Assembly: GCA_947040945.1 (NCBI GenBank)
Contig: CAMRCO010000003.1
Coordinates: 1 to 50,640, forward strand
Length of the DNA: 50,640 nt
Source of the DNA: an uncultured Spirochaetia bacterium
Lineage (GTDB): Bacteria; Spirochaetota; Brachyspiria; Brachyspirales; Brachyspiraceae
Direction: 5' to 3'
Notes under the pieces: generated by a model
Database searches by the model: none
The model's input: only the letters and a program-made list of their open reading frames with translations
What the model was told of the DNA's origin: nothing
Translations under genes and position numbers: made by a program
Shown: piece after piece, positions 14,526 to 17,371 of the stretch
Layout of the letters: every line of letters begins with the position of its first letter
Position numbering within the stretch: the stretch's first letter is position 1

Positions 14526-16031
14526 ATGATAAAAAAATCACTTAAAGACTTTATTACAAACTCCTCAACTTATGAAAAGTTTTATAATCTAGAAATAGAA
14601 GGCATAGCATATAACTCGAAAAATGTTTTGGCAAACTATATATTTTTTGCTATTAAAGGAATTAAGTCAGATGGGCATAATTATATAGAAAATGCTATAG
14701 AAAATGGGGCTATTTGTATAGTTTATGAAAGCTCTTATAACGTAAACGAAATTATAAAAAAACATGGAAATATTTGCTTTATTAAAACAGATAATATAAG
14801 ACATTTACTAGCCGAGTTTTCATCCAAGTTTTTTGACGAGCCTACAAAAGATATTCAAACTGTAGGTATTACAGGAACAAATGGCAAAACAACCACAACA
14901 TATTTAATTAGAGAAATACTTAAACATCATGGTGAAAAATCAACATTAATTGGAACAATAACCAATATTGTGGGAGACACTGTTCTTGAAACAAAACTAA
15001 CAACACCTGAGTCTTTAGAAATGCAGAGTATTTTCTATACTTCTAAAAAAGAGAATGTACTACATGCCGTAATGGAGGCATCATCTCATGCATTAGAGTT
15101 TGGTCGATGCGACTTTATAAATTATGACGCTATAATTTTCACTAATATTACAGAAGATCATCTTGATTATCACAAGACTATAGAAAAATATTTAGACGCT
15201 AAACTAAAAGCATTCGACTTATTAAAAGAAAGCACTAAAGAGAAAAAAACAGTAATCATAAATAAGCATACAGACTATTATGAGAAAATATGTGAGTACG
15301 TAAAAAACTTAGGTATTAATATAGTAACCTATGGGCTAGACTCTGACTCTGACTATTATGCTGAAATAATATCGCTTGACATAAAAAGTATTCAATATAA
15401 ACTTCTTATTAGAGGCAATTTTATAAAAAATGTTTCTTTAAGGCTTTTAGGGGACTTTAATGTTTTGAACTCACTTTCTGCCCTAGCCTATGCAAATGAA
15501 TATGGGCTAGATATTAACACTTCAATTGAGGCTATAAAAAATATTCAAGTTTCAGGGCGATTTGAAATTGTTACAGAAAATGCTCATAACTTCATTGTAG
15601 CGGTTGATTATTCACACACACCCGACAGTCTTAAAAATATACTTAAAGCAGCAAGGGCTCTTAAACCGAATAAGGTATTAGTTGTTTTTGGATGTGGTGG
15701 AGATCGTGACAGACTTAAACGACCAATGATGGCGAGTATTGCTGCCACTTATAGCGACAAGGCTTACCTCACACTTGACAATCAGAGAACAGAGCAAGTA
15801 GAGCAAATAATGGATGACATTGAGAAAGGCTTTGAAGGAAAAAACTTTAACTATGTGAAAATAGAAGACAGAAAGTTAGCAATAGAAACGGCAATAAATG
15901 AAGCCACTGAAAACGACATTATTATTATCGCAGGCAAAGGGCATGAAACATATCAAATATTTCCTGACAAGACAATTCATTTTGACGACAGGGAAGAGGC
16001 AAGGATAGCATTATTGAAGCGTTTTTCATAA
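14526..16031 (+). CDS. murE: UDP-MurNAc-L-Ala-D-Glu:diamino acid ligase MurE
   Basis: A 501-residue cytoplasmic Mur ligase that adds the third (diamino) residue to the peptidoglycan stem. The N-terminal UDP-binding domain is followed by the P-loop TGITGTNGKTTT, then TTPESLEMQ, EASSHALEFGRC, FTNITEDHLDYHKT and the C-terminal GKGHETYQ and FDDREEA motifs. The substrate-selecting motif is DNQR at residues 418-421, where DAP-adding enzymes have DNPR. The arginine is kept but the proline is replaced by Q, so the diamino acid cannot be read safely. No good ribosome binding site precedes the ATG, which suggests coupling to ftsL. Confidence 0.94.
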   Translation: MIKKSLKDFITNSSTYEKFYNLEIEGIAYNSKNVLANYIFFAIKGIKSDGHNYIENAIENGAICIVYESSYNVNEIIKKHGNICFIKTDNIRHLLAEFSSKFFDEPTKDIQTVGITGTNGKTTTTYLIREILKHHGEKSTLIGTITNIVGDTVLETKLTTPESLEMQSIFYTSKKENVLHAVMEASSHALEFGRCDFINYDAIIFTNITEDHLDYHKTIEKYLDAKLKAFDLLKESTKEKKTVIINKHTDYYEKICEYVKNLGINIVTYGLDSDSDYYAEIISLDIKSIQYKLLIRGNFIKNVSLRLLGDFNVLNSLSALAYANEYGLDINTSIEAIKNIQVSGRFEIVTENAHNFIVAVDYSHTPDSLKNILKAARALKPNKVLVVFGCGGDRDRLKRPMMASIAATYSDKAYLTLDNQRTEQVEQIMDDIEKGFEGKNFNYVKIEDRKLAIETAINEATENDIIIIAGKGHETYQIFPDKTIHFDDREEARIALLKRFS

Positions 16032-17371
16032 AAGACATTATATCTGCCCTAAAAGATAATATTAAAAACCCTGAATGCTTTAATAATTACAAAGATTCAA
16101 ACAAAATAGTAAATAAAATATCAACCGACAGCAGAGAAGATTTTGACGAATCTACATTATTTGTAGCATTAAAGGGTGAAAAATATAATGGGCATGACTT
16201 TATAAATGAAGTATATGAAAAAGGATGTCGATTATTTGTTGTATCAGAAAATGTTCCGCTTAAAAGTGATGCTACTTTATTTTTATTTGATGACACCGTT
16301 CTCGCTCACCTCCTCATTGCACGAACTTATAGACTTAAATTTAGTATCCCTATAATTTCGATTACAGGAAGTGCAGGAAAAACTACAACAAAAGAGCTTA
16401 TTGCCCTATTTTTAAGCATTAAATATAATACTCTCAAAACAGAAGAAAACTTAAACAATGAAATAGGCGTTCCTAAAATGATTTTTAGGCTAACAAAAAG
16501 TCATCAAATAGCTGTCATTGAAGCTGGTATGAATCAGAAAAATGAAATTAAAAGAGAATCAATTTCTATAGTTTCCGACTTCGTTTTAATAAATAATATC
16601 GAACCACAGCATTTAGCATACTTGGGTTCTCTTGAAAATATTGCCTATGCAAAATCTGAGTTATTTTCTAATGTAAATAAAAATGCCACTGCACTAATTA
16701 ATAAAGACACAAACTTTGTTCATATATTAGAAAGTGAAGCAAAACGAAACGGAATAGAAAATATTTTATATTTCTCAAAAAGTAATATTTCAATTTCCCC
16801 TGACAATTCATTTATTTATAAAAATATATTATTTAGAAGTCCTTTAATTGGGGAGTTTAATGTTTACAATATTTTAGCTGCCATTAAAGTAGCTGAGTTT
16901 TATAATGTTCCTTTAGATGAATGTGCTAAAATACTTACAACATTTAAATCATTAAATAACCGTATGGAAGTATTTTATAAAAACGATGCTAAAATAATAA
17001 GCGACTGCTACAACTCTAACTATAAAGGGCTAATTGGAATGCTCGACTCTTTAAGTGCTGACGAGGCTGACACAAAAATTGCTGTTATTGGGGACATTCT
17101 TGAACTTGAAATGGAAGGAACACATTATCACAAAAATGTGGCAGAATATATTAATAAACTTGGAAACATCGACATAGTATTTACCTGTGGGAAGCATTCA
17201 AAAGATATATATAAAAATATAGAAGTTAAAGAAAAGCATCATTTTGAAAAGTCAGCTGAAATTTTTAATACTCTCAAAAGCTATATTAAAAGCGACACAA
17301 CTCTACTTATAAAAGCGTCCCTTGGCGTAAACTTTATTAGCCTAATTAACGAAATAAATCGCTCTATGTAA
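16013..17371 (+). CDS. murF: UDP-MurNAc-tripeptide:D-Ala-D-Ala ligase MurF, with non-standard start
   Basis: Adds D-Ala-D-Ala to the stem peptide. The frame is open from 15986 and contains no ATG, GTG or TTG before 16478, yet residues encoded upstream of 16478 are clearly MurF. They include a start-like FFIKDIISALKDN, STDSRED, LFVALKGEKYNGHDF, and the essential P-loop ISITGSAGKTTTKELI. Beyond 16478 are VIEAGMNQKNEI, NNRMEVF, SDCYNSNYKG and IGDILELEMEG. Starting at ATT (16013), 7 bases after AAGGA (16001-16005), gives 452 residues, the normal length; ATA at 16028, overlapping the murE stop, is the alternative. A start at 16478 would lack ATP binding. A base error in the sequence is the other explanation. 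Confidence 0.88.
   Translation: MEAFFIKDIISALKDNIKNPECFNNYKDSNKIVNKISTDSREDFDESTLFVALKGEKYNGHDFINEVYEKGCRLFVVSENVPLKSDATLFLFDDTVLAHLLIARTYRLKFSIPIISITGSAGKTTTKELIALFLSIKYNTLKTEENLNNEIGVPKMIFRLTKSHQIAVIEAGMNQKNEIKRESISIVSDFVLINNIEPQHLAYLGSLENIAYAKSELFSNVNKNATALINKDTNFVHILESEAKRNGIENILYFSKSNISISPDNSFIYKNILFRSPLIGEFNVYNILAAIKVAEFYNVPLDECAKILTTFKSLNNRMEVFYKNDAKIISDCYNSNYKGLIGMLDSLSADEADTKIAVIGDILELEMEGTHYHKNVAEYINKLGNIDIVFTCGKHSKDIYKNIEVKEKHHFEKSAEIFNTLKSYIKSDTTLLIKASLGVNFISLINEINRSM

Follow-up and report, generated by a model that had tools for sequence, protein, structure and literature searches.

The murE-murF junction

We analysed a window of 50,640 nucleotides (the whole stretch of DNA, numbered from its first letter) from an uncultured Spirochaetia bacterium. 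The genome studied is labelled G000 below, and it was compared with a sister species of the same genus (G001) and with another genus of the same family (G028). The features of the murE-murF junction, by position in the window, are as follows.

14526..16031, plus strand: murE (NCBIfam TIGR01085, E 1.7e-143); the reading frame ends TCA TAA at 16031
16001..16005, plus strand: Shine-Dalgarno (SD) motif AAGGA within murE, formed from a rare Arg codon, AGG; spacing of 7 to ATT 16013
16010..16012, plus strand: alternative ATT, one codon 5' of ATT 16013; its SD spacing of 4 is rare in G000
16013..16015, plus strand: proposed murF start codon ATT, aligned with ATG in Brachyspira and with ATC in G001 and G028
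16013..17371, plus strand: murF coding sequence from the proposed ATT start, 452 codons plus stop (TIGR01143); start placed by homology, SD and alignment
16028..16030, plus strand: ATA overlapping the murE stop (ATAA), a disfavoured reinitiation alternative with no SD at working distance
16367..16396, plus strand: ATP-binding P-loop of MurF, GSAGKTTTKE, 5' of the first in-frame ATG
16478..16480, plus strand: first in-frame ATG, internal to MurF; a start there would lose the N-terminal domain and the P-loop

The identity of MurF was established by an NCBIfam profile search (TIGR01143, E 2.4e-93, 313.4 bits against a cut-off of 288.6), in which the match covered profile positions 1-410 of 418 and began at residue 47 of the open frame, well 5' of 16478. 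The murF frame contains no stop codon between 15986 and 17368; its own stop lies at 17369-17371. The murE stop, TAA, lies at 16029-16031, so that with a start at 16013 murF would share 19 nt with the end of murE. Both the P-loop and the N-terminal domain are present in MurF, and the N-terminal residues align with those of Brachyspira and of distant MurF proteins. The MurF proteins of G000 and G001 are 59% identical across their full length, and the MurF of a Brachyspira contig, with an N-terminus as in genus g2, showed 53% identity. This contig is the basis for placing the genomes in the Brachyspiraceae. Only one other murF match was found in G000 (C34), and it was partial, at 30%. A GTDB contig scan for further members of the genus returned matches to one Brachyspira and to distant phyla only, so the murE-murF junction is known from three genomes.

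Absence of a canonical start codon in murF

The preliminary description had stated that murF, in a frame open from 15986, has no ATG, GTG or TTG start. The results confirmed this, as none of these codons occurs in the frame from 15986 up to the ATG at 16478, which is the first NTG. The P-loop that it had placed before the first ATG was likewise found there, at 16367-16396, indicating that MurF made from 16478 would be inactive. As in other genes with AUU, AUC or AUA (AUH) starts, there is no canonical codon able to serve full-length MurF.

We calculated the chance of 155 codons without NTG to be about 0.002 (p), given NTG at 3.9% per codon, and internal gaps of that length free of NTG numbered 24 of 12,605. 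A long NTG-free run by itself is only moderately unusual in the AT-rich genome G000; the murF run is significant because the region of the start falls within it.

The start codon of murF

The in-frame codons proposed earlier (ATT 16010, ATT 16013 and ATA 16028) were all recovered, together with the AAGGA 7 bases 5' of ATT 16013 (16001-16005) and the ATAA overlap of ATA 16028 with the murE stop (TAA, 16029-16031). The SD spacing was 7 nt for ATT 16013, 4 nt for ATT 16010 and 22 nt for ATA 16028. In the SD histogram of G000, AAGGA stands before first ATGs at spacings of 5-11 with a mode of 8, and murF, like other genes with AUH starts, has its SD at a normal spacing (AAGGA, 7). The mRNA structure across the start site was ordinary.

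We then used protein alignment to compare the candidate starts. ATT 16013 aligned without gaps with the initial Met of Brachyspira MurF (MGKTSLKDII versus IEAFFIKDII). Among 27 further MurF frames that could be parsed, all but one from distant bacteria and mostly from other phyla, the best-scoring start fell at the offset of ATT 16013 (-6) in 18 and one residue later (-5) in 4, and in none did it fall at the offset of ATA 16028 (-1). The alignment with solved structures of MurF begins only near profile residue 38, so structures do not decide the N-terminus. On homology and SD spacing, murF, an essential cell-wall gene, probably initiates at AUU 16013, inside murE. The preliminary description had offered either ATT or ATA as the start; its non-canonical AUN start stands, with ATT 16013 clearly the better codon, and ATA 16028 is disfavoured (SD at 22 nt, and N-terminal residues shared by other MurF proteins would be lost).

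Conservation in relatives and the overlap with murE

We examined the murE-murF junction in relatives, a check suggested by the preliminary description. The results showed that the codon aligned to ATT 16013 is ATC in both G001 and G028, preceded within murE by GGAGG and GGAG, respectively. An AUH codon is kept across the three genomes (ATT, ATC and ATC in G000, G001 and G028), although murE coding confounds this in part, since the ATT ATY pair and the SD-like purines lie within murE and owe part of their conservation to MurE. The Arg codon of murE that bears the SD (AAGGA/AAGGGAGG) is AGG in both G000 and G001, where AGG accounts for 11% and 8.5% of Arg codons, giving a joint chance of about 1%. 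In eight sampled Brachyspira murE genes, where murF lies elsewhere, this residue is encoded by AGA wherever it is Arg. The choice of AGG argues against murE constraint alone as the source of SD conservation.

Candidate canonical alternatives exist in both relatives. In G001, a GTG occupies the column of ATA 16028, 2 nt past the murE stop and 19 nt from the SD. In G028, an ATG lies further upstream, where the conserved Arg of MurE is Trp (TGG), a replacement demanded by the ATG in the murF frame. At the proposed start itself, an ATG at 16013 in G000 would change a Leu codon of murE (TTG) to Trp, and an ATG at the same site in G001 would create a stop (TGA) within murE. These substitutions suggest that the overlap with murE is a concrete reason why the start may stay trapped as AUU or AUC, an ATG being costly to MurE.

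Other proposed AUU, AUC and AUA starts in the lineage

Overall, about 1.31 of the 2.17 Mb of G000 was surveyed for similar starts. In a coding-potential survey of 944 kb, trmB and murF topped the list, with long coding sequence 5' of the canonical start, and were the only conserved genes to stand out. In a G000/G001 ortholog screen of 496 frame pairs, trmB, murF and an SbcD-like phosphoesterase had homology far 5' of the first NTG; the remaining matches were apparently antisense frames, judged by composition. A broad count of AUH codons with an SD was uninformative alone, because ATT or ATA directly 5' of ATG is common in AT-rich leaders. The further genes of G000 with such starts are as follows.

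L173:27-662 (contig 11), minus strand: trmB; ATC after TAAGGAG, with no canonical start until almost the last codons
L243:2251-3318 (contig 42), minus strand: SbcD-like phosphoesterase; ATT, with AGGAG at a spacing of 7
L251:12670-13602 (contig 50), minus strand: solute-binding lipoprotein; signal peptide from an ATT directly after an in-frame stop

In G001, trmB also starts at ATC, after TAAGG. Across 28 genomes of the family, the trmB start codon was TTG in 22, ATT in 3 (G004, G021 and G028), ATC in 2 (G000 and G001), ATA in 1 (G002) and ATG in 0; G028 has an extra TTG that lies six codons upstream and lacks an SD. The trmB start shifts between UUG, AUA, AUU and AUC and is never AUG, a pattern that might reflect selection for a weak start. 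The SbcD-like gene begins with ATT in G001 too (L132:17287), again with AGGAG, whereas the aligned codon in G028 is ATG. The ATT of the solute-binding lipoprotein overlaps the upstream stop as ATTAA, and its relative in G001 has a canonical start.

The starts of trmB, the SbcD-like gene and the lipoprotein make sequencing error a poor explanation, and the recurrence of AUU and AUC starts in these genomes seems to be a genuine trait of this lineage. We tentatively consider that the family may have relaxed third-base start selection, with AUU, AUC and AUA routine and, over evolution, exchangeable in a small share of its genes, some of them essential; this broader reading is possible and somewhat doubtful.

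Several further frames were observed. A small lipoprotein-like frame in G000 (L239:597-1004, contig 38) has a signal peptide seemingly starting from ATC with AGGAG, and an ATG 11 codons further on, within the signal peptide. A membrane protein frame of 530 codons in G001 (L293:10862-12445, contig 30), with TAAGGA before ATT, is an AUU candidate, its first NTG lying 26 codons 3' of the ATT. In the Brachyspira-like genome G017 (L028/L031), a change of frame together with an in-frame TGA splits murF, and murE is split in G010 and G012; either the sequences contain errors here or these essential genes are truly broken.

Alternative explanations

Under termination-reinitiation at ATA 16028, ribosomes reaching the end of murE would begin again on the spot, in the manner of ATGA junctions. 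The ATAA overlap has the classic geometry for this, and G001 carries its GTG at the aligned codon, just after the murE stop. However, the SD is too far away to serve (22 nt in G000 and 19 nt in G001), AUA by reinitiation alone would be very weak, and the protein would lose EAFFI, a stretch present in nearly all the MurF proteins compared (offset found in 0/27), so that we consider this route unlikely. The same codon might instead conceal a sequence error or a very recent mutation, the true 16028-16030 being ATG, one base from ATA. A single substitution at 16030 would yield an ATGA overlap with the murE stop retained, and the GTG of G001 fits such a start; the SD, the N-terminal length and the AUH starts found independently in trmB and in the SbcD-like gene would nevertheless be left unexplained, and an error at 16030 is very improbable. 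A single-base assembly error had been named in the preliminary description as the plain alternative. At 16013 this is unlikely, as G001 and G028 also have AUH codons there and an ATG would turn the murE Leu into Trp.

A MurE-MurF fusion would arise if ribosomes made a programmed -1 frameshift near the murE stop, since murF lies in the -1 frame. Natural MurE/MurF fusions are described by NCBIfam NF008896, and all three genomes have homopolymer runs at the end of murE with SD-like purines upstream. The run in G000 (CGT TTT TCA TAA), however, permits only poor single-tRNA slippage; no tandem-slip heptamer of the form X XXY YYZ is present in G000, and the other genomes have A-runs. The downstream structure is not strong (z -1.7), and trmB and the SbcD-like gene share the start problem without an overlapping upstream frame, which makes a frameshift improbable. 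The lack of a canonical start upstream of 16478 would also be expected of a decaying pseudogene or of a truncated protein made from ATG 16478 or later. Against this, the 452-codon frame is intact with conserved active-site motifs, coding bias extends 5' of 16478, the 59% identity to G001 spans the full length, and the other match in G000 (C34) is partial, at 30%; decay or truncation is hardly credible.

Proposed mechanism of initiation

From the sequence, homology, SD and conservation observed here, we infer initiation at AUU 16013, its efficiency, its coupling to murE and the reason for its tolerance as follows. The AAGGA inside murE (16001-16005) would position the ribosome for murF, and the ordinary CAU initiator tRNA would read AUU 16013 with a third-position mismatch, assisted by the SD, giving a MurF that begins fMet-EAFFIKDII. 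Translation of murF would be tied to that of murE, whose ribosomes would keep the start site open, and the murF AUU would be one of several AUU, AUC or AUA starts tolerated in the family. Work in S. aureus showed that AUU or AUA combined with a strong SD supports translation in vivo, with reporters reaching about 10% of the AUG level and ccpN up to 30% in rich medium (PMC13009471). Given the weakness of starts of this kind, MurF output is probably limited by low efficiency.

We also examined the initiation machinery. In the 60% of the G000 genome covered, there is one initiator-type CAU tRNA with a GGG/CCC anticodon stem, and no unusual initiator tRNA with an Ile anticodon was seen in this part of G000 or in G001. 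A changed initiator tRNA was rejected as the cause on these grounds, for a partial genome. IF3 has its full length and shows no obvious loss when aligned with the E. coli protein, and an IF3 defect was likewise rejected. AUU with a CAU anticodon is disfavoured by IF3 in vitro (PMC10158994). With an ordinary CAU initiator and a normal-looking IF3, standard initiation with a third-position mismatch is expected. The infC frames of G000 and G028 have an ATG near the homologous start, and feedback of the infC type, through IF3 and an AUU start of infC, is not indicated by these sequences. By analogy, an infC-like weak start for murF is plausible.

Novelty and significance

AUU and AUA starts are already known from infC, pcnB, ccpN and cvfC1. 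What appears new is murF as an example of an AUU start and the recurrence of AUH starts in a Brachyspira-like family; a search of the open-access literature by those terms found no report of a murF AUU start or of non-AUG starts in spirochaetes. Common gene finders accept ATG, GTG and TTG only, so that MurF would be cut to a piece without the P-loop and nearly all of TrmB in G000 would be missed. Essential full-length proteins can appear absent or broken through annotation in this way. In annotated genomes, AUG has changed to AUU with extreme rarity (1 of 61,358 reconstructed AUG starts; PMC5622118), and such switches are concealed by annotation tools. Several AUH starts in one family offer a natural system for distinguishing weak starts selected for low output from a tolerant initiation machinery. 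The most interesting part, beyond murF itself, is the family-wide non-AUG start of trmB, with its exchange of UUG, AUA, AUU and AUC.

Comparison with known systems

The gene for IF3 in E. coli, infC, starts at AUU and is like murF here in being a conserved gene with such a start. According to the account in PMC13009471, E. coli infC is autoregulated by IF3. The present case differs in that the gene is murF and that infC of this organism carries an ATG at the N-terminus. For E. coli pcnB, another AUU-start gene as murF is here, we know of no feedback loop and, unlike murF, of no overlap with the frame of an upstream gene. The AUU start of pcnB limits its expression (Binns and Masters 2002, as summarised in PMC13009471).

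Non-canonical starts in S. aureus include cvfC1 (AUU), ccpN (AUA) and citZ (AUA) (PMC13009471). They have good SDs, as murF does, and two of them are conserved across species; they are other genes in another phylum, and were established by ribosome profiling and reporters, whereas murF was studied by comparison only. In Streptomyces, sigR starts at GTC, and its repression through IF3 was shown experimentally (PMC5472188). An unusual start codon acting there as a translational brake may be likened to that of murF, but sigR is a regulator gene and its codon is GTC, not AUU. Finally, in the bifunctional MurE/MurF fusion (NCBIfam NF008896), murE and murF are physically linked, as they are here; the fusion is a single frame, whereas the present genes occupy two frames with a 19-nt overlap.
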